A model generated the notes under the pieces. That model saw only the letters and a list, made by a program, of their open reading frames with translations. It did not search any database and was not told the DNA's origin. Below are positions 41,349-63,716 of a stretch of DNA of 64,000 nt, piece by piece (the first letter of the stretch is position 1; every line of letters starts with the position of its first letter). A program made the position numbers and the translations under genes. Source of the stretch: Sulfurospirillum barnesii SES-3 (GTDB taxonomy: Bacteria > Campylobacterota > Campylobacteria > Campylobacterales > Sulfurospirillaceae); NCBI RefSeq assembly GCF_000265295.1, contig NC_018002.1, positions 2,232,001-2,296,000 of the forward strand, in the 5' to 3' direction.

Positions 41349-41603
41349 TTAAGCTTTGCGGACGGTTATTTGCAGCAGTGGCATTCGCAAAATGATTTCA
41401 GCCTTACGAGCTGATGAAGCCTTTTTGTCCAAGAGGAACTTTTTTAAGCTCTCAAGCAACTCTTTTAGCTTTTGCTTTTTGGGTTCTTGAACTTTTTCAT
41501 CGGTATAGATGATGAGCTCTTCAACAAGTTTTACATTTTCCTCAACTATTTTTTTACTTAGCGTTTGCATTTTTTCTCCTGTTATTGGGTTTGATGTTTT
41601 CAT
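41349..41603 (-). CDS. Small helical protein, element transfer operon
   Basis: 84-aa Lys/Glu-rich protein predicted to be mostly helical (NVKLVEELIIYTDEKVQEPKK, in parts). An internal ATG at 41570 has AGGAG at ideal spacing and may be the true start (73 aa). It is the last gene of the transfer-gene run, one base after the stop of the large membrane protein. No family recognised. Confidence 0.5.
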   Translation of the reverse strand: MKTSNPITGEKMQTLSKKIVEENVKLVEELIIYTDEKVQEPKKQKLKELLESLKKFLLDKKASSARKAEIILRMPLLQITVRKA

Positions 41604-41604
41604 T

Positions 41605-44947: not shown

Positions 44948-44976
44948 TGTAAATCTCCTATTGTTGGGGGGGGCAC

Positions 44977-46650: not shown

Positions 46651-46651
46651 C

Positions 46652-49600
46652 TTATCTCTCCCTTGGGCGTTCTTGCACTTCTTCGTAAATTTCTTGTGCT
46701 AGATTTTTAGCGACTTCTTCTAGTGTATATTCTCGATCGGTTATATCTTTGCTAAAATCCACTATTATCTCACATGAAGCTCTTGCAAGGTCTGGGCGTT
46801 CAGTTGCGATATATTCAAGAGAATTAAAAATTTCAATAACATCTCCTTTTTGCATGTGGGTTAAAAAATCATAAAACTCTTTAAAATTTTCAAGTGAAGA
46901 GATGATTGAATCAATTCCTTTATATGTTTCTTTGACTTTAAGCATAAAGCTTTTTTCTTCCCGCTCTTCGAGCTGAACCCCATCTTTGTGTAGGTCATTG
47001 ATGTCTTTACCTTGTTCATTTTTTTGATATTTGATGTATGTAAAGTCTGTTTGTTGAGCTTCGCTTGAAACTTTTTTGACGAAATCAATACCTGGTTTAT
47101 CATTTTGATTATAAAAGGCTACCTGTGTATATTTGTCTTTTATGGCTTCAGCTACCTTGTGAGCGTTGGACGTGCTGTTGGCGATAATGACATCAGTGTG
47201 GGTAAAATCACGTTGATTATATGCCGCTGCATAACACATTTTGCTCTCAAAAACACAAACTGATTGAGTTGGGGTCTGACTTTTAAAAAGGGAGATATTT
47301 TTCTCGCCTAGATTCATCGATTTTAAACTGCCCAAAGGCTTAAGAAAGTGAATATCACCTCCGCCACCGATTGACTCAATCCCAACACCAAAGGCTTTTT
47401 TGATGGTGCCGTCCTTTGCCATATATTCCCCCGTGATCATTTTAAGTTGTGGCGGTATTTTGTGAATGCCTCTTGATGCTAGATATTCAACCGCTGGAGC
47501 ATAGTCTTTAAGTTCTTTTACACTTGTCACTTTGGAATTAATGTGTATTTCCGCTCTTTTAAGATTTTCTTGCATCTTAAAGCTTAAATCTGAGGCTGTG
47601 CGTATCGCTGTTCTTGTTCCATTTAGCTCATCCAATCTCTCTTTTACGTGGTTTGTTATCCCCAAATGAACTATTGCGTAATCTAAAGCCTCCTTGTAGG
47701 AAACTTTGGTTGTTTCCATAATGAGATTTTCAATAGTGCCGTTATTGCCGCCAAAATCGTTGTATTTCCATTCTCCTAATTTATCAATATACATGTTGGC
47801 ACTCGCTGTTTTATCATCGCTTCGAACTTTAAACTCATATCTACCGTTTTTCTCTTTGTATGGAATGCCTAGAGCATTCAGAACCGCTGCTGGGTCAGTT
47901 AACTTTAATTCGTCTTTTGTGCGTTTAGATAGTTGGCTGAACTCTTCTTGAGTTAACTTAAGTTGTTTTGGTTGCGTTGGCTGTTGCATTGTTGTTTCCT
48001 TTTTTTCTTGTGCGCTGATTAAATCAGTTGCATTTAGCTTTTGGCTATCTCTGGCAGCTCGTAGCTGCAACTCTTTTAAATTGTCGGTGATAATGTGAGC
48101 TTCAAATTTTGCTCGTGTTATTTGCGTGTAAAAATCATTAAAACTTGCGGATTGTGAATTTGCGACGGCTATGACTTTATCTGTGGTTTTACCTTGAGAG
48201 GCAAAGTCCGTGATGGCGTAAGCGTGTTGGATGTATTTGTAGTCTTTAAGACTAAAAGTTTTCACTGCTTTTTCAAACTGCACGGTTATTTCATTGTTTA
48301 CAATTGCTGTTATTGTTCCAATTTGTCCATTTTTTAACCCCAGTTTAGAGTCGTTTTTTTTCATGATGACTTGCTCGCCCACCCCAAAATCTGTAAACGT
48401 CTCTTTGAACAAATTTAAGCTATTGCCGTGTGTGGATAAATATACTGTCTCAGTAAATGTTTTATCTTTAAAAAAATGCTCTATTTCTAAAGTGTTTTTA
48501 TCGATATTGATTTTCTTGATTATCGCTTCTCTGCCTGCACTGATTGAACCTATATTTTTAGATAAATATACTTTCTCATTTACTTGGTAATAGATTGCGC
48601 TTCTCTTTTCCAGCGCTGACATACTTGGAACTTCACGAGTAGCAAAATTTTTAGATTCGGTTATCTTTCCGTTCCCGATTAAATGAGAGCGTATAGAGCT
48701 ATTTAAAGCTCTACGGTCTGAGTTGGTCGTAGTGATTAGGAGTGAATTGTGTCTATCTTTGAGATATTCAACTTCTGCGGCTTTTAGCCTCTCTTTAGGT
48801 TTTTTTATCTCTCTAGTGGTGTCTTTTAAAATATTTAATGCAGCAGATATATCTTTGTCTAAAATATTTTTAACTGCATTTTTCATCAAATGATTTTTTT
48901 GTCGATTGCCTTCATCTAAATATACTGTCTCAAATCCCTGCCTTTGCATTCCTGCAAATATATCACCTTGAGAGATACTTTTCTTTTGATTTTGATCTCC
49001 TGAAAAGACCAATTTTAAATTATTTTCCTCTGCTATTTTAATCAGCGCCTCAGTGTCTCTGAGCCCTAACATACCAGCCTCATCTATGATTACGATAGCG
49101 TCTTTGACTCCATTTCCATTTTCTTGAATAAACTTAGCAACGGTGTAAGACTCCTTTATCCCTGCCTCTTTGGCTAAGTTGTCAGTAGCTGTTCCTGTTG
49201 GAGCTAGTGCAATGACTTTTATGTCTTGAGCCTCTGCTACATTTTTAACAATTTCGAGAGATGTAGATTTACCAGCACCTGCAACACCTTGAGCAAGAAT
49301 AAATTGCTTATCGCATGTAAGAATAGTGTGAGCTAATTGAGTTTGTCCCTCTTTCAGCTCAAAACCTTTTTCTTTTTCAAACTCTTTAATTGCCTTATCT
49401 ACTTGGGTTTTATCTGAAGTGATAGAAAAATTAATGCTCTCTTTTTTACTAAAAATATATGTCTCTTTTTCAAGCACTTCTTTGGTCGTGTATTGATTTT
49501 CTTCTTGATTGATTTCTATCAAATCTTTATAATTTTTAAACTCGTTTTGGATGGCTTCGATAGATACATCAGTGGTTAAGCTGACTTTGAGCGCATGTTT

Positions 49601-50608
49601 TAAAATGTCTTCACGACTAAATACAGATTTCCTATCTGTAATGTCCGTGATGGCGATTTGAACGCATTCTTTGGCTGTTATATGTCGTACCTCTAAATCT
49701 GCTTTTTTATATTTTATTGAGGCAATATCCGCTCCAGCTTCTTTCAGCCTTTCTATGTTGTGCTCTTGAATTGCCTCTCTATCTTTGTTTTTATCTTTCC
49801 ATTTAGCTGTTTGTTTTTGGGCGGTATGGGTTGCTTTATAACTTGTTTGCCCTGACTCTGCCATCTCATTTTTAATATCATCTTTACGAGTTGAGAACTT
49901 ATCTCTTAGATATTTATTGACATTTTTTAGGGAAAATGTGCCCACTTTTGCATCTGTTATCTCTACTTCAAAACCTAATTTTTGAAGTTTTTGTGCAAAT
50001 GAATTACGCTGGATTTGACCTATAAGTTGATGATTCATCATTATTTGATTAAACTCAACGCTTTTCCATTTACCATTTTCGTCTTGAATCATGTTAATGG
50101 CTAAACAATGTTGATGTAAATGCATATCGTTATTTCGGCTTTCACTATGGTCGAATCTCGTAAAAATCATTTTAGGTTGTGCTTTTTGACCTTGTACATT
50201 ATCTCGACTCTTGGAGTTTGAATAATTAGCCTCTGCAAAATCTAAGGCCACTGAAATAGACTCTGTAAAAGCTTCTCTTATTTGAGCTTTTACGTCATCG
50301 CTTGAAACTTCATATAAAATTGAAATTGATTTATCTGCTGCAAAAGTTAAATCACAAGCTGCTCGGAGTCTATCTCCATCTTTATCAAAATCTTTTTTAG
50401 TGAGCTTTATGAGTTGCTCTCCGCTTACAGGATGTCGTCCAGCCAAAAGAGAATCGAAGTCTTTTAAATTAAAATCTTTTAATCCGAGTTCATCTTTAAG
50501 TCCACCATAAAATGAACCTTGTTCAAACTCATTATTAAGATAATAAGTGTCTTTTTCAAAATAATTCCTTGCATTAGAAGCGGTTGTAATTTTGGGCTGT
50601 GCTAACAA
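46652..50608 (-). CDS. MobF relaxase fused to RecD-like helicase and primase/TOPRIM domain
   Basis: 1318 aa, three regions. (1) Relaxase about 1-330: nucleophile Tyr pair in KDTYYLNN near 20-24, DLTFAADKSISILYEV near 88, and the three-His metal motif HLHQHCLAIN near 164-170. (2) Helicase about 420-880: Walker A GVAGAGKST near 442, VIIDEAG near 514, SGDQNQ near 541, and C-terminal YAITDFASQGKTTDKV. (3) Primase-like tail about 915-1250: a CHC2-like part (AVLNALGIPYKEK...WKYNDFGG...GTIENLIM) without zinc Cys, then a TOPRIM-like part (VCVFESKMCYAAAYN; VAFYNQNDKPG). Start TTG 50608 has GGAGAAAAA at ideal spacing. It nicks and unwinds the element, and the tail may prime the transferred strand (inference). 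Confidence 0.88.
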   Translation of the reverse strand: MLAQPKITTASNARNYFEKDTYYLNNEFEQGSFYGGLKDELGLKDFNLKDFDSLLAGRHPVSGEQLIKLTKKDFDKDGDRLRAACDLTFAADKSISILYEVSSDDVKAQIREAFTESISVALDFAEANYSNSKSRDNVQGQKAQPKMIFTRFDHSESRNNDMHLHQHCLAINMIQDENGKWKSVEFNQIMMNHQLIGQIQRNSFAQKLQKLGFEVEITDAKVGTFSLKNVNKYLRDKFSTRKDDIKNEMAESGQTSYKATHTAQKQTAKWKDKNKDREAIQEHNIERLKEAGADIASIKYKKADLEVRHITAKECVQIAITDITDRKSVFSREDILKHALKVSLTTDVSIEAIQNEFKNYKDLIEINQEENQYTTKEVLEKETYIFSKKESINFSITSDKTQVDKAIKEFEKEKGFELKEGQTQLAHTILTCDKQFILAQGVAGAGKSTSLEIVKNVAEAQDIKVIALAPTGTATDNLAKEAGIKESYTVAKFIQENGNGVKDAIVIIDEAGMLGLRDTEALIKIAEENNLKLVFSGDQNQKKSISQGDIFAGMQRQGFETVYLDEGNRQKNHLMKNAVKNILDKDISAALNILKDTTREIKKPKERLKAAEVEYLKDRHNSLLITTTNSDRRALNSSIRSHLIGNGKITESKNFATREVPSMSALEKRSAIYYQVNEKVYLSKNIGSISAGREAIIKKINIDKNTLEIEHFFKDKTFTETVYLSTHGNSLNLFKETFTDFGVGEQVIMKKNDSKLGLKNGQIGTITAIVNNEITVQFEKAVKTFSLKDYKYIQHAYAITDFASQGKTTDKVIAVANSQSASFNDFYTQITRAKFEAHIITDNLKELQLRAARDSQKLNATDLISAQEKKETTMQQPTQPKQLKLTQEEFSQLSKRTKDELKLTDPAAVLNALGIPYKEKNGRYEFKVRSDDKTASANMYIDKLGEWKYNDFGGNNGTIENLIMETTKVSYKEALDYAIVHLGITNHVKERLDELNGTRTAIRTASDLSFKMQENLKRAEIHINSKVTSVKELKDYAPAVEYLASRGIHKIPPQLKMITGEYMAKDGTIKKAFGVGIESIGGGGDIHFLKPLGSLKSMNLGEKNISLFKSQTPTQSVCVFESKMCYAAAYNQRDFTHTDVIIANSTSNAHKVAEAIKDKYTQVAFYNQNDKPGIDFVKKVSSEAQQTDFTYIKYQKNEQGKDINDLHKDGVQLEEREEKSFMLKVKETYKGIDSIISSLENFKEFYDFLTHMQKGDVIEIFNSLEYIATERPDLARASCEIIVDFSKDITDREYTLEEVAKNLAQEIYEEVQERPRER

Positions 50609-50775
50609 TTTTTCTCCTTTTTTGAGATTTTTTCTTTAAAAGCAGCGTTCCACCTCATAGGTGGGTTTGGTGCCTCTCTCTAGCGAGTAATAATTGATTA
50701 ATAACTCATTAATATTTGAGTAATAACCATTAAAAGGTATTAATAACCTATGATAATGCGTAATAAGCGTTAATA
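50609..50775. other. Candidate oriT / AT-rich iteron region upstream of the relaxase
   Basis: Between a small HTH-type gene and the relaxase. It holds a hairpin (CCACCT-CAT-AGGTGG, 50650-50664) and three direct copies of G(A/C)GTAATAA (50685, 50718, 50758) in very AT-rich DNA with many TTAATA steps. Position beside a MobF relaxase gene, a hairpin and iterons fit an oriT or control region. No nic sequence was identified. Confidence 0.5.
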
Positions 50776-51105
50776 TTAACGTTCAAATTGGCTGTAGTCT
50801 GGTTCTATGATTTCAAAGCTTTTGACTTCACTTTTTTTGAATAGATTTGAAGGTGTAGTGGTTTTTTGTGGAGTAGGTTTTTTTTCTATCTCTAAATCTT
50901 CTTTCACTTTTTTTGGCTGTTGTTGTCTTTTAATATATTGAGACAAATTTGATTGTTTAGCCTCAACTCCATTTAATCTCAAAAATTCGCATATCGATTT
51001 TTGAGAAAAACCTTCTTCAATAAGCTGTGAAATCTCAGAATTAAATTTATGTAATTCTGAGATTTTTTTTACTTTATGTTTTTTTTTGAATTGTGCTAAA
51101 TCCAT
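50776..51105 (-). CDS. Small HTH-type mobilization accessory protein
   Basis: 109 aa from ATG 51105 (AGGAGCGTC upstream; the longer frame to 51141 overlaps the next gene). The segment EISQLIEEGFSQKSICEFLRLNGVEAKQ resembles the helix-turn-helix of TraK/MobC-like oriT-binding proteins; the rest is basic and Pro-rich. Directly adjoins the candidate oriT, fitting a relaxosome role (inference). Confidence 0.55.
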   Translation of the reverse strand: MDLAQFKKKHKVKKISELHKFNSEISQLIEEGFSQKSICEFLRLNGVEAKQSNLSQYIKRQQQPKKVKEDLEIEKKPTPQKTTTPSNLFKKSEVKSFEIIEPDYSQFER

Positions 51106-51116
51106 TTTTGACGCTC

Positions 51117-51473
51117 CTATCCAAATAGCCCTGTTAGCCAAAAGGTTAAGGTGACAAACAAGCCACCTACAAATAGACCACCAAGCCCAGTAATGATAAT
51201 CCCTCGCTCACTCTTACGCTTACATTCGTAAAATTCCTCTCTCACATTTCGAAGGGCGATAAGGTTAAGCTCTAGCTCCAGCCCTTCTTTTTTTAGACTT
51301 TCAAAAAGAGAATTTTTACTTAAAGCAATCTTAAATTCATTAAGTATCTCTTGTTTTAGTTTTTTGGGATTGAAACTCTGCTCAATTTTTTGCACTTGCC
51401 CAATGAGTTGTGCTATATCACTCATTAAAATATTAAACTGCTCATCGCTTAATATTTTTACTTCACCCGCCAT
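51117..51473 (-). CDS. Tail-anchored helical protein
   Basis: 118 aa, mainly helical (DIAQLIGQVQKIEQSFNPKKL, in parts) with a C-terminal membrane segment near 92-114 (GIIITGLGGLFVGGLFVTL). Unknown family. It begins 1 bp after the parA stop and overlaps the next frame only slightly. Confidence 0.6.
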   Translation of the reverse strand: MAGEVKILSDEQFNILMSDIAQLIGQVQKIEQSFNPKKLKQEILNEFKIALSKNSLFESLKKEGLELELNLIALRNVREEFYECKRKSERGIIITGLGGLFVGGLFVTLTFWLTGLFG

Positions 51474-51474
51474 T

Positions 51475-52248
51475 TTAAGCCCCTAGCTTATTTGCAATTT
51501 TGGCCATCATTGGTTCAATAAACTCTCGATATAGATTTTGGGCGTTTAGGACTAAACCTCTTTGTTTAGTTAATTCAAGCCTGATAGCATCATCGGGCTC
51601 AGCTCTCTGCGCTCTCGTGATAGCATCTACGTCACTATCGATTAGGGATCTAAGGGTAACACCCATACTGCGTGATTTTTTGATGGCTTTGGAGTCTTTT
51701 ACAACAAACCAATTAGCTTCATCGTTTAAGTCGATTCCATACTCTTTTTTTAGTTTTTTTAGATTGTTAAAAAAAGTCTCAAATTGCTCTTTAGGTTCGG
51801 CGTATTCAAAATTGTTGAATCGATTAAAGCTAAACATTATTTTTTGAGGATCGACTTCATTTTTAATGTTTTCTAAAAATTTTATGGCAACATTAAAATC
51901 CTCCGAACCGTCCATAGCTGGGATGATAATCAAGTCCAAGGTATCGTATAAATTACTCTTTTTCATGGCTGAATGAAATCTGTCTAACATTACAGCGCCA
52001 ACATCTATTATTCTTATGCCTGGGCTTAAGAGCAGATTTTCAAATTCAAAAAATGACTCGCTGGTTTCATCAATGAAATCCATCTGTAAACTTTCATAAA
52101 ATCCTTGAGCGTCCAGCCTTGAGTCGCTCTGGTTAATGTAATCGATCTCTATTAATGTTGCATCCTGTAGATAAGATGCTACCGCGCTACTAATTGTGCT
52201 CTTACTCGCGCCACCTTTGAAGTTGTAAACTAAGACATTCTTTTTCAT
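51475..52248 (-). CDS. parA: ParA/MinD-type ATPase
   Basis: Deviant Walker A ATPase, 257 aa: NFKGGASKSTISS at 9-20 with the signature Lys, RIIDVGAV near 80 for Walker B region, and LIIIPAMDGSEDF. Such proteins partition plasmids or position complexes. No ParB is next to it; the flanking membrane proteins suggest that it may instead work with the transfer machinery (inference). A degenerate copy of its N-terminus lies just upstream (52249-52425). Confidence 0.82.
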   Translation of the reverse strand: MKKNVLVYNFKGGASKSTISSAVASYLQDATLIEIDYINQSDSRLDAQGFYESLQMDFIDETSESFFEFENLLLSPGIRIIDVGAVMLDRFHSAMKKSNLYDTLDLIIIPAMDGSEDFNVAIKFLENIKNEVDPQKIMFSFNRFNNFEYAEPKEQFETFFNNLKKLKKEYGIDLNDEANWFVVKDSKAIKKSRSMGVTLRSLIDSDVDAITRAQRAEPDDAIRLELTKQRGLVLNAQNLYREFIEPMMAKIANKLGA

Positions 52249-52425
52249 TTATTTTCCTCCTTTTGTGATTCTTTTTGCCATCTTCGGCTGAAATGATGCT
52301 ATTAAAGACGCATTAGTTGTTTTGGCTGAGCCACCTTTGACATTGCAACTTAAATAAGATGCTACTATGCTGCTTGTCGTGCTCTTACTCGCGCAACCTT
52401 TGAAGTTGTAAGCTAAGACATTCAT
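52249..52425 (-). pseudogene. 58-codon ParA N-terminal relic (two Walker-A-like motifs)
   Basis: Not previously listed. The frame reads MNVLAYNFKGCASKSTTSS, then VASYLSCNVKGGSAKTTNASL and a short basic end. The first part copies the adjacent ParA start (VLVYNFKGGASKSTISS) with the P-loop GG changed to GC; the second part holds another intact KGGSAKTT-type motif. It has a ribosome site (AAGGAAAATAAT) and directly precedes parA, so it may be translated. It looks like a collapsed tandem parA duplication. Confidence 0.55.
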
Positions 52426-52426
52426 A

Positions 52427-53029
52427 TTATTTTCCTTTTGATTTTTGGATTTGCAAGATGGAAAATTTTCCGTCTGTGCTGTTGATGCCTGTTGTGTATT
52501 GGTTTTTGAGTGTGTAAAGTTGAAAAACTGTGTCGCTCTCCGCCACTTGGATATTGTATTTTTTTAGAAGCCCTTGTAACTCAAGAGCTTCGCCAGCTTT
52601 ATTTTTTAATTCGCTATTTAAATAATATTGATTGAGCTCACTTTGCGCAAAACTTCCAATATAGCCACCGACTAATAAGGCGGCAATGCCTAAAAAAATG
52701 GTGTTTTTAATTTTAAAGCTTGAAACTTTTTGTTCAAATTTTAAAAAACTAGCCATGTGATAATCAACTAACTCAAGGTGCTTGAGCATTTTTTGCGCGG
52801 CTTTGTTTGAGGCTTCAATCGTTTTAAGGTCTATTGATTTAGGCTTTAGACTATGCGATAGTTCATGTTTTGCAATAGGTGTTTTTGGCACTTGTGGTTC
52901 TGGTGTGTTGGTGTTTCTTTGAGAAACGCTTTGAAAAGATTTTGGCTGCTCAAATGCTCCCTCGTCCTCCTCATCCTCGTACTCATCTTGATCATACGGT
53001 TCTTCACATTCTTCGAACTCTTCTTTCAT
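52427..53029 (-). CDS. Acidic single-TM protein of the parA operon
   Basis: 200 aa from ATG 53029 (GGAGTTTTAAAA upstream; the longer frame to 53074 lacks support). Very acidic first 30 residues (EEFEECEEPYDQDEYEDEEDE, in parts), then a helical stretch, one membrane helix near 110-128 (IFLGIAALLVGGYIGSF), and a periplasmic end. Unknown family. It is the first gene of the run through parA. Confidence 0.6.
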   Translation of the reverse strand: MKEEFEECEEPYDQDEYEDEEDEGAFEQPKSFQSVSQRNTNTPEPQVPKTPIAKHELSHSLKPKSIDLKTIEASNKAAQKMLKHLELVDYHMASFLKFEQKVSSFKIKNTIFLGIAALLVGGYIGSFAQSELNQYYLNSELKNKAGEALELQGLLKKYNIQVAESDTVFQLYTLKNQYTTGINSTDGKFSILQIQKSKGK

Positions 53030-53051
53030 TTTTAAAACTCCTTTTGGCAAA

Positions 53052-53100
53052 ATATCTAATTGAAAACAAGGCAAGTATCAATTTGTTCTCAATTAGATAT
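53052..53100. promoter_or_regulatory. 17-bp inverted repeat upstream of the parA run (operator-like)
   Basis: ATATCTAATTGAAAACA (53052-53068) and TGTTCTCAATTAGATAT (53084-53100) match as an inverted repeat at 16 of 17 positions, 15 bp apart, in the 5' region of the acidic-TM gene. Arm length and spacing suit a dimeric repressor site or a hairpin leader. Confidence 0.55.
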
Positions 53101-53358
53101 TAAGGTAAAAATTGACAATGCGTTCAAGCTGGACTCAATCCAGCCACCCACCCAGGATACCCGCCACTTGATTAACGGTTTAATTATTACGGAGGTGTCG
53201 CACTAGTAATGTAAAAAACATGAGGCTTTACACCAGTAGCGTAAAGTAAATTTAAACCCTCATTTAAGCCTCTTAGAAGGGGCTTAAATGAAGATTGTGG
53301 GGTGGGTAAGGGAATTTTTCTCCCCTAAGTTATTTTTTGAGTTTTTAAAAGAAAAAAA
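53101..53358. other. Iteron-like and hairpin region beside the initiator gene (candidate origin)
   Basis: Contains a hairpin GCTGGA-CTCAA-TCCAGC near 53131, two copies of CAC(T/C)AGTA(A/G)(T/C)GTAAA (53201-53215 and 53231-53245, 30 bp apart), and a 10-bp perfect inverted repeat CATTTAAGCC / GGCTTAAATG (53261-53290). No ORF with support. Location next to the initiator-like gene suggests a replication origin or terminator. Confidence 0.45.
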
Positions 53359-53799
53359 TTATGCTGAGTTGACGGGTCTGACTGTAGTGAAGAATTGAGG
53401 TATATTTTTTTCTTTTTGAAACCCCTCTTTCTTATCATCTAATTTAGTATTCTTAATACGTGTCGATTTTCCCAACTTGGGGAAACCCAAATGTGGGTTT
53501 TCAACATTTGGCTCAAAACTTGGGCAATCGTCCAAATAGTATGTACCAGTACCATCGCTACTTTTGGTATAGGTTATATAGCCATGTGATTTTAATTCGT
53601 GCATGGCGGCTATGATGGCTGCTTGGCCGTCTTTTTGTTGATTTGCAATGCTTTTAATGGTGAAATTCCAGCCATCTTCCATACTAAACATGTATGAAAA
53701 TAGCCCTTTGGCTTTAAATGAGATATTGGGGTCGCGTAAAAAATTATTAGAGATTTGCGCAAAATCGCGTTCTCTCTTTTTAGTTTTATTGTCGCTCAC
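53359..53799 (-). CDS. Replication-initiator-like HTH protein
   Basis: 146 aa from GTG 53799 (AAGG about 10 nt upstream). The N-terminal domain (FAQISNNFLRDPNISFKAKGLFSYMFS, then IANQQKDGQAAIIAAMHELKSHGYI) matches the winged-helix of phage/plasmid replication proteins (HTH_36 type). The C-terminal 55 residues are basic and likely disordered. Shorter than many initiators; could be a truncated Rep or a regulator. Confidence 0.65.
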   Translation of the reverse strand: MSDNKTKKRERDFAQISNNFLRDPNISFKAKGLFSYMFSMEDGWNFTIKSIANQQKDGQAAIIAAMHELKSHGYITYTKSSDGTGTYYLDDCPSFEPNVENPHLGFPKLGKSTRIKNTKLDDKKEGFQKEKNIPQFFTTVRPVNSA

Positions 53800-53930
53800 T
53801 GTTTTTGTACCTTAATTTTTTGGCACGTAATAAGCATGTGTGAGTTATAATAGTAGACTACAATGCTTTATTAAGTGTTGTCGATTAAGCCTTAGTTCTC
53901 AAAATTTGGTCGTGGAGAGAACTAGGGCGA

Positions 53931-54176
53931 CTATGCTATTTTGGTGATTTCCGTTCCATCATTCCATTCGATAATTTCTTGTATGCTCCATAATCTTGTT
54001 TTCCCAATTTTGCGCCATCTTGGCAATAACTTTCTCTTCAAAATTTGGGCTTCACCAAGATCACAAAATAATTTATTTGCCTTTGAAACACTAATGCCAA
54101 TCACCTGACTCATCTCATTAATATCAAGGTTCATTTTTTGATATTTTTCAAAAATCATTTTTATTTTTTCATTCAT
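53931..54176 (-). CDS. AlpA/excisionase-like HTH protein
   Basis: 81 aa: EMSQVIGISVSKANKLFCDLGEAQILKRK, then PRWRKIGKTRLWSIQEIIEW, as in small MerR/AlpA-like excisionases. Probable recombination directionality factor for the integrase (inference). Confidence 0.6.
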   Translation of the reverse strand: MNEKIKMIFEKYQKMNLDINEMSQVIGISVSKANKLFCDLGEAQILKRKLLPRWRKIGKTRLWSIQEIIEWNDGTEITKIA

Positions 54177-54331
54177 TTCTTTTCCTTTTATTTTACTCTT
54201 TATATCTTCTTTTTTTCTTCTTTTGTAATTCTAATCTTTATTTTCTTTACTCCAACTTAAAATATTTATTTTTTACTCTTTTTTTCTTCTTTTAATGTTA
54301 TAATGATAAAACAACAACATAAGGAATAAAA

Positions 54332-54811
54332 ATGACATCAGAATCGCTCAAAGTCAACTTTATGATCTCTAAAGAAGCAAAACAGAATATTGAACGCTAC
54401 AGAAAGAGTAGAAGACTCACAAATTCATCACTAATAGATAAACTTTTACAATTTGACTCAGAGGCACTACAGTTATTTATATCTATTTTTAAAGAACAGC
54501 AAGAGCAAGAAAATCAGGGATTAGAGTATTTACAATTTAATAATATTGAAGGTGGGATTGTTTTTACTAATAGTATGATGAATAACGCAATTCATTCTAA
54601 TCTTAGCAGCCTAAGTAATACAAGAAGAAAAGAAGAAAAAATATTTTCTGCGGATACAGTAGAAAATATGAGTAAAAGAGAGCTAGGAGAAAATTTAGAA
54701 ATAATGGAAAAGGCAATTCTTGTCATAGGCAAAAGTGGCAATGACACTAAAGATGATATAAAAGAATTGAAGTTAAGAATTGAAAAACTTGAAAAAATGA
54801 TAACGAGATAA
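54332..54811 (+). CDS. Ribbon-helix-helix-like / coiled-coil protein
   Basis: 159 aa. First 45 residues (SLKVNFMISKEAKQNIERYRK) look like a ribbon-helix-helix DNA-binding start; the rest is helical with a C-terminal coiled coil (DIKELKLRIEKLEKM). Unknown function. Divergent from the AlpA-like gene across 155 bp of T-rich DNA. Confidence 0.55.
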   Translation: MTSESLKVNFMISKEAKQNIERYRKSRRLTNSSLIDKLLQFDSEALQLFISIFKEQQEQENQGLEYLQFNNIEGGIVFTNSMMNNAIHSNLSSLSNTRRKEEKIFSADTVENMSKRELGENLEIMEKAILVIGKSGNDTKDDIKELKLRIEKLEKMITR

Positions 54812-54825
54812 AAAAGGAGATTTAA

Positions 54826-55155
54826 ATGTTATTATTAGAAATATTAGAAATATTATTAGACTATCTCAATAAAAATGAAAAGATAGAAGCTTCGGCTTTA
54901 AATGAAATGTTAGAAAAATATAAAAAGGCGGTAGAGAAAGAAGAAGAGGATGAGATAAAAAATCGTTATTCAGAAATACTTGAGAATTTTAATAAATTAA
55001 TCATGAATCAAAATGAGAACGAAGTTATTGAGAATTTAAAAAATTTACTAAAAGAAGTTATCATTTTAGAATATAGTAGAATGTACAATGAAACAGAACA
55101 TGGGACGATTGAGGATCTTTCCCAAGCCCTTCCCAAAATCCAAACACTTAAGTAA
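54826..55155 (+). CDS. Small acidic helical protein
   Basis: 109 aa, Glu/Lys/Leu-rich and almost fully helical (LEKYKKAVEKEEEDEI). It starts 14 bp after the RHH-like gene with AAGGAG before ATG; the two are probably a pair. No family recognised. Confidence 0.55.
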   Translation: MLLLEILEILLDYLNKNEKIEASALNEMLEKYKKAVEKEEEDEIKNRYSEILENFNKLIMNQNENEVIENLKNLLKEVIILEYSRMYNETEHGTIEDLSQALPKIQTLK

Positions 55156-55178
55156 GTCTGAGTCAAGAAGCTTATATG

Positions 55179-56333
55179 TCAAAGTTTCAAACTTAATCCT
55201 TTTGTAGCCTCATGCCTTCTATTTGGCACGAGGTGACTATACCGCAATGTCATTTCAAGCGTTTTATGCCCTAGTTGCTCTTTTATCTGTAAAATGTCAA
55301 GTCCACTCATCGCAAGCCAGCTAGCGTGCGTGTGCCTTAAGCTATGAGCGGTGATTTTATGTTGCGTTTTTGCGTCTTTGTTTTTAGGGATGACTGCTTC
55401 TAGTGCAGTCATGAAGTGGTCTGATACTCTCAAAATATTTCCACCTGTACTTGTGCTAATGACCAAGTCAGATTTTTTATTTTCTTTGAGATGGTTGATC
55501 GTTTTTAACAATAAATCATTCATATATATATGTCTGGCATTGCCATTTTTGGTTTTTTTAAAATAAATTGTGTTTGTCTCAAAATTCACATCGTTCCATC
55601 TAATACCAGTCTCATCACTACTTTTATTTTTTTTTGAACTCGCCCCTGTGATTTCACTAAATCTTGCACCTGTAAATAAAAGCAATACTGTTAAATGATA
55701 CGTTGTTGTATCAATAGATTGCAATATTTCCAAAAGCTCTTTTGCCTGTTCTTTGGTTAAAAATGACAATCTATGATTATCCACATCTGGCATTTTCACT
55801 TTTCCGTTAGAGATAGGGTTTACAAAATTAGTTATTATCTCATGCTTTATTGCATAATTAAAGATGGTTCTAATGAGCGTTATTTGATGTTTGACGGTTT
55901 GCGCTGCTAGCCCTGTACGGATTAAGTCTTGTTTGAAGTTTTCTAGGTCTAATGATTTTAAACTTTTAACGGCTTTATTGCCAAAAATAGGGGCAATGTG
56001 CTTGTCATAATTCCACTTATCCATCTGGTGAGATTTTTTACTAACTTTTGCATGCTCATAGAAAACTTTCCATAAATCATCTAGTTTAATTTTATTGACC
56101 CGAGAACCTTTTATGGTTGGCTCTTCGTCATGCTGGATTTTGTATTTAATTTCAATGAGTTTAGAATACGCATCTCTAGCAGTAAAATCACTTGAAGCGG
56201 TCTTTTTGCCAACTAGAACTTTTTTCGGCTTATTGTGCTCATCTCTGTAGTTTATATAGAAGGATATATCTCCATTTTTGAGTATATTTTTCCATACTCC
56301 CTCATATTTGCCGCCAACTGGTTCTAGTGCCAA
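55179..56333 (-). CDS. int: Tyrosine-recombinase integrase
   Basis: Site-specific recombinase that inserts the element in tRNA-Leu. 384 aa: N-terminal arm-binding domain, core-binding domain (about 90-190), catalytic domain with Arg in GARFSEITG near 225, HSLRHTHASWLA near 326-337 (His-x-x-Arg) and nucleophile Tyr in LRYSHLVP near 364. It lies 200 bp from attR and reads away from it, a usual layout for tRNA-targeted integrases. Confidence 0.92.
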   Translation of the reverse strand: MALEPVGGKYEGVWKNILKNGDISFYINYRDEHNKPKKVLVGKKTASSDFTARDAYSKLIEIKYKIQHDEEPTIKGSRVNKIKLDDLWKVFYEHAKVSKKSHQMDKWNYDKHIAPIFGNKAVKSLKSLDLENFKQDLIRTGLAAQTVKHQITLIRTIFNYAIKHEIITNFVNPISNGKVKMPDVDNHRLSFLTKEQAKELLEILQSIDTTTYHLTVLLLFTGARFSEITGASSKKNKSSDETGIRWNDVNFETNTIYFKKTKNGNARHIYMNDLLLKTINHLKENKKSDLVISTSTGGNILRVSDHFMTALEAVIPKNKDAKTQHKITAHSLRHTHASWLAMSGLDILQIKEQLGHKTLEMTLRYSHLVPNRRHEATKGLSLKL

Positions 56334-56536
56334 TCGCTATCCTTTGAACTTTTCAATGTTGATTTTTTATTATAGCAAAATAGATAATTTTTACTACAGT
56401 TTTTACTACAATATTTAAAAATATATACTTTATAATGACTAATATTGAAAAATATGAATAGTTATAAAAAGCCTATATTGTGGTATTTTGTGAGCATTTG
56501 AAAAAGATTAAGGATTAATGAAAAGATGAGAAAAAA

Positions 56537-56619
56537 AGACTTAGGATCTGGTGCCGAGAGGCATGGGAGTTCGAGTCTCTTTATCCGCACCATCCCTATT
56601 TTAGGGACTTTCAAACAAA
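56537..56619. repeat. attR: 83-bp copy of the 3' end of tRNA-Leu
   Basis: Identical to 39517-39599. It lacks the 5' half of the tRNA, so it is an attachment site and not a functional tRNA gene. Confidence 0.92.
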
Positions 56620-57139
56620 AATCAAAAAACATTTTTACTTTCAAAATCTCAAAAGTACACATTAGGGTACACATTAAAAAATTTATCACCAATTCAATGC
56701 ATGATTTCATTAACATCTATTTTCAGAAGTTTTCTTCACTGCTTACATGATACTAAAATACTGCTAGAAAATTTATGTGTGCTTCTTTGACTATATTTTG
56801 AGGTTCTAAAATGAACTTGTGAGGCACAACAAGTGGAAGTTTTAGTGCCTAATTGGTGCCTTTTAGGTAGTAAAATGAACTATATGCCTATTTTAGGATA
56901 TTAACGGCTATTCGAAAATTTAAGTCTCTTTATCCGCACTACGCACAATATAGGACTTTACATCCTCTTGGAATCGGTACTTTCTTCTTTTAAATTTTCT
57001 CAAATTACACTTTTATATATTCGTTTATAGTCATTTACTAAATAACAAAAAATAATAGTATAATTTTTCAGATTCATCTGAATACTTTTTACAAAAAATG
57101 AAATTATAGAGCGATTTAAACCGCGGAATTGAAAAATTA
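56620..57139. other. Intergenic region with a degraded third tRNA-Leu fragment
   Basis: At 56923-56939 a 17-nt exact match to the tRNA-Leu 3' end (AGTCTCTTTATCCGCAC) is followed by diverged sequence still resembling the downstream att part (TAGGACTT). CCTATTTTAGG near 56887 also recalls the att flank. No supported ORF. Likely the decayed border of a second element. Confidence 0.55.
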
Positions 57140-60019
57140 ATGTACTTGTCTAATATCACTGGAATATTATCATTTTACGAATACATTATAAAGACACTAG
57201 AATTAAGCTGTATTTCATCGTATCTTTATAATAAATATTTAAAAGATAACCGTCATGTAAAATATGACAACAAGCAAATGGTTTGCGCAGATAGTCCATA
57301 TTTTATATATGATAATTATAAAAATCCGATTAACATAGAATTTAATCCTCTCAATGAGCAAGAAGAATCATGCAGTCATTTGCTAATAAATGATTCAATA
57401 CATCAATACCTAAAATATCTAATATACAATCTATTTAATAAACTAATTAACATTAAAAATGGCATACCTACTAATAACGCACACAAGTTTGAAAAAAATC
57501 AAATAGATATATTACAAAATCCAACAAAAAATACAATATTCAAATTTAATAATCTCTTCAATATTGTCAGTGCAACATCATTTTCAAAAAACATAATTGA
57601 TTTTTCAATTGATTTTATCAACTCTTCAAATAGTGCTAAAGTACATTTTAAATACCATCTCTATGATGCACTTTGTACAATACAAAACAATACAATTTTT
57701 GGGATTTATCTTGAAGATTCTGAAATTACATTGTTTAAGCAAATATATGAAAATTACATAATCAACATAATTAATAATTTATTCAATAAGGATATAAAGA
57801 TTCCTGAAAATAGTAGTAGGTATCCTCGTTTTTATGTGCTAATGATGATAAGAGTAATCCTACAAGAAGCTTTTTTTGAAAAATATAATATATCTTTCAC
57901 CATGAACACCCCAAAAAAGCTTTCAGAAAGCTATGAGATATTATCTAATTTAAATAAATTTATAAAAATACTACCACAAATCTCTGAACAGCAACAAGAA
58001 TTTGACCGACAATCTTACAAAAATGAACTAGAAATAAGAAAAGCAAGTGAGCCTGATTGGCTTATATTAAAGGATCATAATATGCCAACAATATTGAGTA
58101 ACCAAGAATTAGAGGTTGCCAACGATAAGAATATGGATACTTTAACAAAACTTATAGAAACAGCCAACCAAAAATATAATAGACGAGTCTATAACTTTCT
58201 TGCAAATGAGCAGGTAAATCTTTTTATACAAAACTATAACGAAATGAAAAATAATCAAGAGTGGTCAGAAATTTTTTATTGGCAGAGCTTAGTGCTAAAT
58301 ATTCTAAATGAAAATGGCGCAAGTTTATGGTTTGATACCAGAATTGACAAATATTGTTTTCGTTCAAAAATTGGTGGTAATATTATTCATGAAAATAAAG
58401 AAGGAATAAGTGAATTATTATCTAGAGCCTTAAAAGATAGAATAACTAATTTTTTAAATAGATTCAATAGTGTATTTTTTGCTAATCACGCAATCGAAAT
58501 TGTATTGGTACATAAACTTAATGGTATACAAAATCAAAAGTTAAAACAAAGTGAGAGAGCATCCAATGTAATAAAAATACTACTTTTTGAAAATGCAATA
58601 CCAACCATAGATGATGATAAATTTGATGTTCAATCCCCTATGGAATTCTCTCAAGATTACAACCATTTATTTTATACAAGAAACCGATTTGTACCTACAA
58701 AATATCTCTTAAAACGCTTTAATAACACTAATCTTACTAGCAATAATGCAACTAGTTTTGATAATCTATTTACTCTTAATGAGGATAGCTATTTGCTTGA
58801 AACTATGAAAGATACATCAAATTGCAGACGCTCATCTTTCATAGAAGATCTTATTTTTTATCTTGTAAATGAGGATATACATTCATACTACTATGTGATG
58901 AATTGGTTAGCTTATTTTTTCCATAACTTACAAAAAAGTGGTACTGCATTAGTGCTAATTGGCGACCAAGAAGTGACACAAAATATTTTGTGGGATAAAA
59001 TTATAAAAGAGATTTTCGGACTACAATACTGTATTACTATTAATGATAAAGAGTGCAATACTGCCTCATATTTTGATATTGCAAAAGATAAACTCTTTTT
59101 TCACATAGGCGATATCACTGATGCTGCAACAAAATTTGATGATGAAACCTTGTATAGACTTGTAAAAGATCTTTTAGTGAAAAAATCAATCACTAGGCTA
59201 AATAAAGAGAATGAGCAAGAGGAATCTATCATACATGGACAGATGATAATTACAGCTAAAAACCCTTCCCCTTACATTAAAAGAGCATTGTCAAAATGTA
59301 CAATCATTAGAGTTAATGATATGGATACTATTATTGAAAAGCTAGGCGTACCTGATGAATTGATACTTGAAGATAAAATAGAAAAAGATTTAGAGAATTT
59401 TACTAATGTTTTACAATCTTTTAACAGAAACTACAAATTTACCAAATATGCTATGGATACAAAACATAGACAAGAGATAAGTGGCAATAAAACATCTAAT
59501 ATAAACAAAGAGGATATTGAAAAAGAGATTGATGATTTTATTCAAGCGATTAAAGATAAAAATATAGAGTATTTTGAAAAGGTAAAAGAGGCTGAAGGTG
59601 GTGCAATCTATGAGCGACTAAAAAATGCTTTTAATTATGAAGATGGATACTTTATAGGTCAAGATTTGCTTCATTACTATAATGCCACACATGAACAAAA
59701 GTTTGAAAACAAAAAACAGCTAACGGATAAGTTAAAAGAAAAAGATGAGATGTTCGCCCAAGAAGTAAAGACTCTAAAAATTTTAACAGCAGAACAAAAA
59801 GAAAAGGTTTTATTTCCAGCACATAAAACTTCAAAAGACACAAATTACAAAGAGCTTTATAAAATCAATGGCTACACCTTAGCAAAAGATATAACAATTC
59901 CTTATGGAGCAATCATAATTTCCAGCCAAGATAATATTAAAAAATACAAGCATGATAATATAGATAATGCTATTAAAATCCATGAAGAGTATAAAGAAAG
60001 TAAAGCTAAAAAAGTCTAA
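57140..60019 (+). CDS. Large AT-rich protein with degenerate P4/D5 primase-helicase-like region
   Basis: 959 aa. The N-terminal about 300 residues are unrecognised, Asn/Ile-rich and partly helical. The region about 575-770 follows the layout of P4/D5-type (DUF5906-like) phage helicases: YYVMNWLAYFFHNLQKSGTALVLIG near 592, then DKIIKEIFG, then LFFHIGDITD as a sensor-like strand and a long C-terminal tail. The P-loop expected after LIG reads DQEVTQNILW, with no GxxxxGK[ST], so ATP hydrolysis is unlikely. No good ribosome site before ATG. GC content is clearly below the backbone. Function unknown; see findings. Confidence 0.6.
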   Translation: MYLSNITGILSFYEYIIKTLELSCISSYLYNKYLKDNRHVKYDNKQMVCADSPYFIYDNYKNPINIEFNPLNEQEESCSHLLINDSIHQYLKYLIYNLFNKLINIKNGIPTNNAHKFEKNQIDILQNPTKNTIFKFNNLFNIVSATSFSKNIIDFSIDFINSSNSAKVHFKYHLYDALCTIQNNTIFGIYLEDSEITLFKQIYENYIINIINNLFNKDIKIPENSSRYPRFYVLMMIRVILQEAFFEKYNISFTMNTPKKLSESYEILSNLNKFIKILPQISEQQQEFDRQSYKNELEIRKASEPDWLILKDHNMPTILSNQELEVANDKNMDTLTKLIETANQKYNRRVYNFLANEQVNLFIQNYNEMKNNQEWSEIFYWQSLVLNILNENGASLWFDTRIDKYCFRSKIGGNIIHENKEGISELLSRALKDRITNFLNRFNSVFFANHAIEIVLVHKLNGIQNQKLKQSERASNVIKILLFENAIPTIDDDKFDVQSPMEFSQDYNHLFYTRNRFVPTKYLLKRFNNTNLTSNNATSFDNLFTLNEDSYLLETMKDTSNCRRSSFIEDLIFYLVNEDIHSYYYVMNWLAYFFHNLQKSGTALVLIGDQEVTQNILWDKIIKEIFGLQYCITINDKECNTASYFDIAKDKLFFHIGDITDAATKFDDETLYRLVKDLLVKKSITRLNKENEQEESIIHGQMIITAKNPSPYIKRALSKCTIIRVNDMDTIIEKLGVPDELILEDKIEKDLENFTNVLQSFNRNYKFTKYAMDTKHRQEISGNKTSNINKEDIEKEIDDFIQAIKDKNIEYFEKVKEAEGGAIYERLKNAFNYEDGYFIGQDLLHYYNATHEQKFENKKQLTDKLKEKDEMFAQEVKTLKILTAEQKEKVLFPAHKTSKDTNYKELYKINGYTLAKDITIPYGAIIISSQDNIKKYKHDNIDNAIKIHEEYKESKAKKV

Positions 60020-60602
60020 TATTAAGTACATTATTAAGCTTTGAGAGCTACTCTCAGCCTTTCTCAGTGTGCTCTCAAGCCTTTCTCTTTGGATTCTCTG
60101 GGCAATTCTCAGCAATATTAGATGGATAATATTCCTAGGGGAAGCGTTAGAAAACTGTGTCAATCTGGTATACAAAAAGATTGAGCGATAGAAATACAGA
60201 TAGACACAGAGGCAATAATATTACAATTGATAGGAAAGGCAAAGCACTTGGTGGAAAAGATGAAGCTCTGGCTCCACTTATTAACCAACTCACTGAAGCG
60301 AGATAGACTCTCACCTTTTTCGAGACCTCACAAGAAACAGAAAGAACGGTTACAGTTCAAAGATTATGAAGAGTGATCATGGAGCATTTGAACTAGATGT
60401 TCCAATATGAAGTTTGCTATCCATATTTGTTTCTGTGTATCATTTTGTGTTGACAGATCAGGCTTTATAAAATTTAAATTAACCCAGACTGCTAGCTAGC
60501 AGTCTGGGTTAAAATTAGTATAAACATAAGGCTTACTCTCCAAATCAAATTTATAAATACTCCTTATACAACAAAGTCTTTTTACAAAGATATAATAAGT
60601 GC
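60020..60602. other. Degenerate region with direct repeats, relic frame and a 34-bp palindrome
   Basis: Contains near-repeats CTCTCAGCCTTTCTC (60051) and CTCTCAAGCCTTTCTC (60072); a relic frame from TTG 60181 to TGA 60369 interrupted by one TAG (60304), reading ITIDRKGKALGGKDEALAPL and FFETSQETERTVTVQRL, not recognised; and a 34-nt loop-less perfect palindrome at 60479-60512. No intact gene. Confidence 0.5.
60479..60512. repeat. 34-bp perfect palindrome
   Basis: Arms TTAACCCAGACTGCTAG and CTAGCAGTCTGGGTTAA meet without a loop. Could be a terminator stem, a cruciform site or a joint left by inversion or element loss. Confidence 0.8.
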
Positions 60603-60833
60603 TTAAATGCAGGGGCGAAAATCTAGATTATATGCCACAATAGTATTAGCCTCAAGATAGCGTATAAGCTCAGACCTAGAGATATGAAGCTTGTTCCCTA
60701 TTTTGACAACTTCAATTTCATTCTTCGATATAAGCTTCTTTGCCATATCTATTTTGATTATATTCATCTCCTCAATTTCTTTCAAATTAAAAATTACGCC
60801 TTTTTGGATTAACTCATCGTAGTTAGTTTTCAC
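60603..60833 (-). CDS. HTH_17/excisionase-like small protein
   Basis: 76 aa: MAKKLISKNEIEVVKIGNKLHISRSELIRYLE (in parts) is the helix-turn-wing of MerR-like excisionase/HTH_17 proteins. Likely an accessory of the second element. No integrase partner is visible nearby. Confidence 0.6.
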   Translation of the reverse strand: MKTNYDELIQKGVIFNLKEIEEMNIIKIDMAKKLISKNEIEVVKIGNKLHISRSELIRYLEANTIVAYNLDFRPCI

Positions 60834-61329: not shown

Positions 61330-62148
61330 ATGAGTGTAAGACCACTTAGCAATGAACAATTAAGAGCACAAGCACCCTCCATCTTTTCAGAAAATCCGAT
61401 TGAAGGTGTTTCTGATAAATATGCTTTTGTACCAACCTATTCAGTATTGGATACATTCAGACAAGCGGGCTATTACCCCATCATGGCTGGTGAAAGTCGC
61501 GTGAGAAACCATGAAAACAAAGGCTATCAAAAACACATCATTCAGTTTAGAAGCCTAGAGCATCTTTTACGTCCCAGTGCTAATGAAGAATATGCGGATA
61601 TTGTACTGACCAATTCGCACAATCGCACATCCTCCTTTAGTGTTGATTTAGCCATCTTCCGCCTTGTGTGTGCCAATATGCTCGTGGTGCCATCACACAC
61701 CTTTTCACACCACTCCATCATTCACGCTGGCTTTAACTTTGAGAAAGTACACACAGCCATTGAAGAAGTAACCTCACATATGCCAAGTATCCAAGAAGAG
61801 ATTGAAACTTTCAAAGCGATTGAGCTATCCGTTGCAGAGCAACACTCGTTTGCCAAAGTAGCACTGGATATTCGTTTCGATAAAGAAGTGCATAGCGTTG
61901 ACTTTAAAGAGTTCTTGCAAGTACAAAGAGATGAAGATGAAGCGCCTACACTGTGGAACGTCTTTAACCGTGTTCAAGAAGCAATCATTAGAGGTGGAAT
62001 CAAAGGCTCTAACAAAGTAACAGGTAAAACATTTACATCCAAACCTATTACCGCGATTGATGCCAATCTCAAAATGAATAAAGAACTCTTCACTATTGTT
62101 CAAATGGTGGCTGATTTGAAAACACCTTCTCTCATGATGGCAGCATAA
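61330..62148 (+). CDS. DUF932-family protein
   Basis: 272 aa of the DUF932 family found on plasmids and phages: SVLDTFRQAGYYPIMAGESR near 36-55, HIIQFRS, DIVLTNSHNRTSSFSV near 94, FRLVCANMLVVP near 115, and NVFNRVQEAIIRGGIKG near 215. Biochemical role unknown. First of a four-gene plasmid/phage set (DUF932, Gp157-like, Rad52-like, DUF2958). GC content is closer to the backbone than in the 57-60 kb gene. Confidence 0.8.
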   Translation: MSVRPLSNEQLRAQAPSIFSENPIEGVSDKYAFVPTYSVLDTFRQAGYYPIMAGESRVRNHENKGYQKHIIQFRSLEHLLRPSANEEYADIVLTNSHNRTSSFSVDLAIFRLVCANMLVVPSHTFSHHSIIHAGFNFEKVHTAIEEVTSHMPSIQEEIETFKAIELSVAEQHSFAKVALDIRFDKEVHSVDFKEFLQVQRDEDEAPTLWNVFNRVQEAIIRGGIKGSNKVTGKTFTSKPITAIDANLKMNKELFTIVQMVADLKTPSLMMAA

Positions 62149-62155
62149 GGGATGA

Positions 62156-62743
62156 ATGATGAAACTGCTCAATTATCAACTACAAACACACATTGAAAGC
62201 TTAGCAACCTCTAAATCCACACAGTACTTCTCAGACTACGTCCATTCCATTCTTCAAGATACCGCCAAGCCCTACTATCAAAGAGCTGATTATGTGGGCT
62301 TATCACTTCAAGAGATCAAATCAAAGATTGATACCCTCGCCAACGATATTAAAGAGCTTCAAAACCTCAAAAAGAGGCTCTCTGATTCGCTTGAAATCGC
62401 CAAAGAGATCATTGCTACAGTGTTCTTAGAAAATGGTGTTGATCGTATTGATGGAAATATCATTAGTTCGCTAACCCTTAGCAATGAAACATCTAGTACA
62501 CAAACTTCCTTCACCATTTTAGACCATGAAGCGGTGATGCGTTTGGGTTATATTAAATACCAACCCGATGTTGAAGCGATTGAGCAAGCAATGATGAGCG
62601 GTGAAGGTAAAGAAGAGTTAGCAGCATTTGTGAAAAGCGAAACCAATACCACAAAGACACTTGCAAAAGTAAAGGTCAATGCAAAACGTATAGGACTAGG
62701 TACTCAAGCAGAAGAACTACTCAACATCGTTGAAGCAGCATAA
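62156..62743 (+). CDS. Siphovirus Gp157-like protein
   Basis: 195 aa; helical N-terminus, coiled coil (KIDTLANDIKELQNLKKRL, in parts), then TTKTLAKVKVNAKRIGL-like end as in Gp157 family proteins, which occur with phage recombination genes. Two tandem ATGs (62156, 62159). Paired here with a Rad52-like annealing protein. Confidence 0.7.
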   Translation: MMKLLNYQLQTHIESLATSKSTQYFSDYVHSILQDTAKPYYQRADYVGLSLQEIKSKIDTLANDIKELQNLKKRLSDSLEIAKEIIATVFLENGVDRIDGNIISSLTLSNETSSTQTSFTILDHEAVMRLGYIKYQPDVEAIEQAMMSGEGKEELAAFVKSETNTTKTLAKVKVNAKRIGLGTQAEELLNIVEAA

Positions 62744-62752: not shown

Positions 62753-63406
62753 ATGTTTGATCAACCACAAAATCAAGCTCTCGCACAAGAGCTTGAAAAC
62801 ACACGAATCAAAAGTCGCTCAAAAGGCGATATTGAGCTTGCCTATTTAGAGGGGTTTGATGTCATCGATACGGCTAATAGGATTTTTGGTTATGGCAATT
62901 GGAGCTATAACATCTCTACATTAGAGCAAGTATCCCAAGAATCTAACCAAAATCAAAACATTGTCATCTGTTATAAGGCTGTTGTTTCGGTAAAAGTATC
63001 TGATGCCAAGCATGAACACCATATCAGTCGTGAGGATGTTGGCTTTGGTACGGGTATTGCCAAAACACTCTCCGATGCACATGAAAGTGCTGCTAAAGAA
63101 GCGGTGACGGATGCACTTAAACGCTCCATGAGAAGCTTTGGAAATCAGTTTGGCAATTCACTCTACGATAAAAGCAGACAACATCAGAATTCTCAACAAC
63201 CACAACCCTCTAACAAAGTGAACGCTATCCCACAAGATTATTCCAAACTCTCCAATCTAGGCTTGAGCGTAATGCAACAAGGACAAAACCTCATTGTCAT
63301 GGGTGATGATATTTTTGCGAAAAAAGACACCATCAAGGCATGTGGATTCAAGTGGGATGGACGCTTGAAACATTGGTGTAAACCTTTAGAGCAACAGGCG
63401 GCATAA
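62753..63406 (+). CDS. Rad52/22-like single-strand annealing protein
   Basis: 217 aa: LAYLEGFDVIDTANRIFGYGNWSYNI near 26-50, SREDVGFGTGIAKTLSDAHESAAKEAVTDALKRSMRSFGNQFG (in parts) near 96-138 are the Rad52 DNA-binding core. The last 50 residues carry a separate FAKKDTIKACGFKWDGRLKHW motif typical of phage/plasmid recombination proteins. It anneals homologous ssDNA, the recombinase of the second element. AAGGAG precedes ATG. Confidence 0.85.
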   Translation: MFDQPQNQALAQELENTRIKSRSKGDIELAYLEGFDVIDTANRIFGYGNWSYNISTLEQVSQESNQNQNIVICYKAVVSVKVSDAKHEHHISREDVGFGTGIAKTLSDAHESAAKEAVTDALKRSMRSFGNQFGNSLYDKSRQHQNSQQPQPSNKVNAIPQDYSKLSNLGLSVMQQGQNLIVMGDDIFAKKDTIKACGFKWDGRLKHWCKPLEQQAA

Positions 63407-63407: not shown

Positions 63408-63716
63408 ATGGATGATCTCATACCAATCTCACTACGTGATAGCATCCCAACACTCTACCAAACGGAAGACACAAAAGATCCTCTGTGCCATATTAAGCTC
63501 TTTACACCTGATTCAAATTGGACATGGTATGTTATTGAGCTTTTCAAGGAAGATATGGATACATGCTATGGTTATGTGCAAGGACTTGAGAATGAATTAG
63601 GCTATTTTAGTTTAAAGGAATTGAGAACTGTCAAGGGGTTTTTAGGTTTGGCGGTTGAACGAGATGTGTTATTTCAACCGACACCGCTATCTCAAATACG
63701 CAAAAAGTACGAATAG
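63408..63716 (+). CDS. DUF2958 protein
   Basis: 102 aa; SIPTLYQTEDTKDPLCHIKLFTPDSNWTWYVIE, GYVQGLENELGYFSLKEL and LAVERDVLFQPTPLSQI are the family's conserved blocks. Function unknown; common on plasmids and ICEs next to DUF932 genes. It starts 1 bp after the Rad52-like stop. Confidence 0.85.
   Translation: MDDLIPISLRDSIPTLYQTEDTKDPLCHIKLFTPDSNWTWYVIELFKEDMDTCYGYVQGLENELGYFSLKELRTVKGFLGLAVERDVLFQPTPLSQIRKKYE

Follow-up and report, generated by a model that had tools for sequence, protein, structure and literature searches.

D5/NrS-1-type replicative helicases occur widely among phages, satellites and large DNA viruses, where they have been studied as motors. The NrS-1 protein has NTPase and unwinding activity, and its dCTPase activity is abolished by the K453A substitution by itself (PMC7102993). 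The SaPI Rep and Cch2 proteins bind repeats located downstream of their own genes (PMC7581432). The locus considered here lies in the window, a 64,000-nt stretch of the complete 2.51-Mb genome of Sulfurospirillum barnesii SES-3 (G000:C1:2232001-2296000), and encodes a protein that shares both fold and ancestry with the NrS-1/D5/DUF5906 helicases, yet fails their catalytic definition and therefore should not be classed as a helicase. No description of a P-loop-less NrS-1/D5 clade was found in the literature searched, which was covered incompletely. The gene and its two main regions are located as follows.

57140-60019, forward strand: gene for a P-loop-less NrS-1/D5-type protein (the 'pseudohelicase'), 959 aa, from the ORF listing and translation
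57140-58273, forward strand: N-terminal extension, residues 1-378, helical, with a low-confidence model, from the AlphaFold model and relative search
58274-59869, forward strand: Head-AAA-Tail region, residues 379-910, matching residues 306-718 of the NrS-1 polymerase C-terminal region (CTR; 6lrb_B, Z 23.1, 388 residues aligned, rmsd 10.5)

A previous sequence-only reading had described a large, AT-rich gene, and the open reading frame is real: it has an ATG start, a GC content of 27% and no internal stops in the ORF check, and its length would arise by chance at its own base composition with p of about 1e-39, while the remaining two forward frames across the same interval contain 81 and 149 stops. 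The reading had also recognised a D5/DUF5906-like body without Walker A, in which an LVLIG strand is followed by DQEVTQNILW. ALVLIG is indeed found at residues 603-608 with DQEVTQNILW directly after it, and the kinship is borne out by a match to PHROG 24712 (function unknown) at 6.7e-9, by the CTR of the NrS-1 polymerase as the best solved relative by sequence (E 0.009), and by the fold. The protein has no match in Pfam, falling short of the gathering score of PF19263 (DUF5906), and no real match in NCBIfam. It found no relatives in a viral-contig scan and none in a plasmid collection; in a phage collection it is matched only by phages of Moraxella, in whose copy Walker A is intact.

An AlphaFold model built from 16 sequences has pLDDT values mostly of 80-95 across residues 570-780. 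A fold search with this model returned the NrS-1 CTR over residues 379-910, followed by the SaPI5 primase-helicase (Z 15) and the vaccinia/MPXV D5/E5 proteins (Z 13), and these scores together with the pLDDT place the protein in the SF3/D5 AAA fold. The high rmsd of the NrS-1 alignment indicates that the domains differ in placement. Judged by model and sequence together, the stretch from residue 379 to residue 910 is the Head-AAA-Tail module found in phage helicases of the NrS-1 type (SF3/D5/DUF5906). Residues 1-378 are without detectable relatives, other pseudohelicases included. An N-terminal AEP Prim/Pol domain was sought; for residues 1-380, where the model is poor, Pfam gave no match and the relative search came up empty. 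An internal duplication of the N-terminus was also suspected, and was unsupported by comparison.

The catalytic motifs of the module are altered at the following positions, assigned by motif alignment.

58961-58984, forward strand: degenerate Walker A, residues 608-615, GDQEVTQN (GKQGTGKG in NrS-1)
59093-59116, forward strand: degenerate Walker B region, residues 652-659, LFFHIGDI, with the catalytic Glu changed to Asp
59285-59299, forward strand: arginine fingers lost, residues 716-720 reading ALSKC where intact relatives have SDRRF

The Walker A Lys, the Walker B Glu, the sensor-1 Asn and both arginine fingers that characterise SF3 enzymes are thus all replaced in the window protein. Relatives came from profile searches that covered the genus and a class sample of 397 genomes, and their motifs were then inspected. 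Thirteen undisrupted or nearly undisrupted dead relatives, from six genera of Campylobacterales, lack the same residue set (by genus, G000, G002, G023 and G010; G400 and G152; G292; G340 and G410; G299; G250 and G346; plus contig L075); G000 is the window genome, and G023, of the same genus, is Sulfurospirillum diekertiae JPD-1, whose form of the protein has 611 aa. The Walker-intact relatives (G005, G374, G051, G289, G103, the NrS-1-like G087 and others) retain GxQGxGKG, the Walker B Glu, the sensor Asn, the hairpin Lys and the RR fingers, and share 16-24% identity with the dead form. Seven catalytic positions are invariant in 10 intact relatives and mostly replaced in the 13 dead ones, which keep the sensor-1 Asn and R555 in no case, R556 in 1/13, the Walker B Glu in 2/13 and the Walker A Lys in 4/13. 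The possibility that the protein is an active ATPase with an unusual but functional nucleotide site, which the sequence-only reading had named, could draw on the retention of G608 in the window protein and of a G-K pair (SGKE) in G299, G250 and G346. It is nevertheless very improbable, since Walker B, sensor 1 and the fingers are gone in addition to the Walker A Lys, and since in NrS-1 the K453A change alone kills the dCTPase (PMC7102993). Contig L075 (RZYM01000052.1) is binned as a Bacteroidia MAG and carries a Sulfurospirillum-type tRNA array and island, and is probably mis-binned.

The dead proteins form a family of their own. In a tree from which the motif columns were left out, all 12 dead rows then available occupy one side of a branch with support of 97/96, and the subclade of the window protein has support of 98/98; several rows of this tree are long-branched, leaving the finer placement unsure. 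The subclade has conserved residues of its own (G608-[DN]609, H655, K714 and S718-x-C720), and shows a loss of hairpin charge and an acidic tail. The homologue comparison proposed in the earlier reading therefore favours selection, the loss of the P-loop being conserved in a supported clade that lost further catalytic residues together and has its own signature. That reading had also allowed for a decaying replication gene, and broken copies do exist: one is interrupted by IS3 (G009), one is a fragment (G015), one is split (G239) and one carries a frameshift (G010). Decay is all the same quite improbable for the window gene, given that its frame stays open for 959 codons at 27% GC, that 13 relatives have lost the same residues while the fold is kept in six genera, that the clade has conserved residues of its own, and that dN/dS is 0.30-0.32 rather than 1 in three pairs, two of which use remnants. 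Because the same residue set is missing in 13 relatives of six genera, the dead clade is not a product of local decay; as it is kept in islands of at least six genera, a second role other than that of a motor is more probable than debris. Within the class sample, a DUF932 gene co-occurs with a dead copy in 12/12 genomes and with an intact copy in 1/12 (Fisher 1e-5), a count in which the intact status of G404 was not motif-checked and the fragments of G009 and G015 were excluded as remnants. By their sequences, then, these are a conserved clade of catalytically dead proteins, confined in the class sample to a DUF932 island family.

In two relatives, G410 and the frameshifted copy of G010, an ATPase domain whose P-loop is intact comes after the dead domain. 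The fusion was modelled for G410, and its motor part resembles the type IV coupling proteins TrwB and DotL (Z 14.4-14.9), its dead part the NrS-1 CTR (Z 12.5). A 942-aa fusion at L051 7349-10177 is made up of a P-loop-less NrS-1-type domain, a TrwB-like coupling ATPase and a tail of NrS-1 type; two families show the dead domain joined to a coupling ATPase. In G152, an intact D5 helicase adjoins the dead one. A VirD4/TraG/HerA-type motor domain has no Pfam match in the window protein and was found only in the fused relatives G410 and G010. In the window genome, no HerA-like or coupling-like motor, TraG-D_C, T4SS-DNA_transf or DUF5906 protein, or partner helicase was detected. The fused motor, at first assigned to HerA, was reassigned to the type IV coupling proteins on the strength of the fold search, and a PADLOC mad8 match to it was not accepted as defence evidence.

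The pseudohelicase gene belongs to an integrative island, whose features within the window are listed below.

39488-39572, forward strand: tRNA-Leu (tag), the integration target, from the tRNA search
56573-56592, forward strand: island attL core (tRNA-Leu 3' end), an exact recurrence of 39553-39572, with the attR copy at genome 2316517-2316536, outside the window
56655-56675, forward strand: terminal arm repeat GTACACATTAGGGTACACATT, found just inside both island ends in G000, G002 and G023
60603-60833, reverse strand: gene of 69-76 aa conserved in the island family and resembling an HTH protein by eye, from the ORF list and island comparison
61330-62148, forward strand: DUF932 gene, island backbone, by family match
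62156-62743, forward strand: Sipho_Gp157-family gene, island backbone, by family match
62753-63406, forward strand: Rad52/22-family gene, island backbone, by family match
63408-63716, forward strand: DUF2958 gene, island backbone, by family match

The island is 27.9 kb long and is integrated at tRNA-Leu(UAG), with cores at genome 2288573 and 2316517, an arm repeat at each end and an integrase beside attR. The pseudohelicase gene is the first gene inside its attL-proximal end, followed in order by DUF932, Gp157, Rad52 and DUF2958, then by type I R-M and PDC-S06 genes, with the integrase closing the far end. It is thus not the single-gene orphan that the sequence-only reading had taken it for. 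Of the replication partners said to be missing, a primase is indeed absent, but Rad52 and Gp157 are encoded in the same island. The placement at a tRNA island border was right as to the integration site, though the five-tRNA array (39060-39572) lies 17.5 kb upstream with another element between. The same tRNA-Leu(UAG) site is occupied in G002, G023, G009, G015 and L075; the GTACACATTAGGGTACACATT arms have the two-ended layout in G000, G002 and G023, occur at a single end in G009 and G015, and are found in none of ten other genomes of the genus. The intervening element (39573-56556) is distinct from the island, integrative and 17 kb long; it lies between perfect repeats of 83 nt (39517-39599 and 56537-56619) and encodes its own integrase (55179-56333, reverse strand), a MobF/TraI-type relaxase-helicase (46652-50608, reverse strand) and a StbB/ParA-like protein (51475-52248, reverse strand). 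AlpA-type islands of three families contain a conserved 636-641-aa protein near the att end (L011 11301-13211, L051 11250-13163 and L054 12021-13946), with no match for the L011 copy in Pfam or for the L054 copy in PHROGs and PADLOC.

Comparison with the sister islands delimits the segment that carries the gene.

56680-60628, forward strand: swapped cassette with the pseudohelicase gene, from DNA comparison with Sulfurospirillum sister islands; boundaries approximate

Similarity stops near 56680 and resumes near 60628, so that the pseudohelicase gene sits in a replaceable cassette. The interior has no DNA similarity to the sister islands and the flanks are about 93% identical; relative to G002, the pseudohelicase has 31% protein identity and DUF932 91%. 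At the same position, other islands contain a Walker-intact D5 (G005, G374), a TraG/DUF87 ATPase with a partner that resembles Replic_Relax by a weak match (G320, G396) or unrelated genes (L076). A third, imperfect att core (AAGTCTCTTTATCCGCACTA, 56922-56941) lies in the cassette upstream of the gene and is perhaps the scar of another insertion, and an IS256-type transposase ORF-like remnant (54% over 39 residues) lies downstream of it at 60140-60400. The G015 island is reduced to its two ends (L060 8075-9763), where a pseudohelicase fragment abuts the AAA gene that, in the island of the window, lies near the integrase.

This location bears on interference or immunity, an idea already raised in the sequence-only reading, in which a dead subunit would block or sense replisomes of the D5/NrS-1 type, whether these belong to phages, to plasmids or to sister islands. 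Such a role would offer an island a new route to compete with phages, and would suit a gene in a swapped cassette at the attL-proximal end, far from the integrase, with unrelated genes in its place in some islands, with type I R-M and PDC-S06 as defence cargo (PADLOC) in the same island, with NrS-1-like genes present in the same taxonomic order (G087, G186), and with faster evolution than the backbone genes, whose dN/dS is 0.02-0.15 compared with about 0.3. Against it, no model matches the pseudohelicase in PADLOC, a library that covers described systems only; the low identity to intact helicases makes mixed rings doubtful; the position is held mostly by one family across six genera; and G152 has an intact D5 beside the dead form, which in G410 and G010 is part of a coupling-ATPase fusion. 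The fusions, as read from sequence, point more to DNA processing for the element itself than to interference, which is a serious though less likely rival.

The DNA downstream of the gene bears on an ATP-independent, origin-binding initiator that would recruit a host helicase. Iteron-like repeats follow the pseudohelicase gene directly in G002 (p 0.003) and weakly in the window (p 0.09), as would be expected from the SaPI Rep and Cch2 precedent (PMC7581432). However, the other ten dead copies have no downstream repeats or repeats at chance level (lowest p 0.05), a YagK-like Rep gene is located elsewhere in several islands, and the DNA hairpin is lost, making such an initiator unlikely. Origin-like repeats instead follow three intact helicases with primase-like neighbours. 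At these loci (L009, L056, L057), a Walker-intact D5 adjoins two small genes that resemble a split DnaG-type primase by eye, with Pfam silent, and strong iteron-like repeats come after them; these are probable replication modules with origins.

The reading tentatively preferred here, held at somewhat less than an even chance on sequence and model grounds, is that of a ring or adaptor which has no catalysis of its own and works for a DNA motor in the replication or mobilisation of its own element. The dead protein would form a ring or scaffold that acts by protein-protein assembly, positioning or regulating an active motor: the fused TrwB-like coupling ATPase in two relatives, the neighbouring intact D5 in one. 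A partner motor is suggested by the G410 and G010 fusions, by the D5 neighbour in G152, and by the DNA motors that often fill the cassette position elsewhere. An adaptor is favoured over a DNA-gripping initiator because hairpin charge is lost, the tail is acidic and downstream repeats are mostly missing; the first two features, in the window's subclade, also argue against translocation. The weakest step concerns the window genome: no partner was detected there, so the host or a helper element would have to supply the motor. Other points also count against an adaptor: the island-end position far from the integrase and the unrelated replacements in L076 are often those of passenger genes, the origin-like repeats that follow the three intact, primase-linked helicases are missing after most dead copies, the hairpin losses weaken the case for a DNA-bound ring, whose assembly and DNA or protein binding are conjectural, and the G010 fusion copy is frameshifted. 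More broadly, and with less assurance, ATPase-less NrS-1/D5-type rings may constitute an undescribed class of adaptors, acting as docking platforms for conjugation or replication motors either fused to a TrwB-like ATPase or in trans, as in the window. A clade that keeps the fold without the catalytic set, within one island class, would separate the structural role of the ring from its motor role naturally, and the fusion to a conjugative coupling ATPase would tie replication helicases to DNA transfer.

Among described systems, the closest is the CTR of the NrS-1 phage polymerase (6k9c, 6lrb, 6k9e), which has the same Head-AAA-Tail arrangement; it differs in having GKQGTGKG, the K525 hairpin and R555/R556 (PMC7102993), motifs that are changed in the window protein, in which no Prim/Pol domain was detected. 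The SaPI5 primase-helicase/PriRep1 and the SCCmec Cch2 are likewise D5-type proteins of integrative islands (structural match Z 13.7-15), but are treated as active initiators with downstream iterons (PMC7581432), whereas the window protein has no ATPase motifs and iterons are mostly missing in the dead family. DUF5906 (PF19263) is matched by the Walker-intact G005 and G051, and even by the fused G010, while the window protein obtains no score. The type IV coupling proteins (TrwB, DotL) have their counterpart in the G410 fusion, whose motor part resembles them (Z 14.9); a motor of this kind is absent from the window protein.
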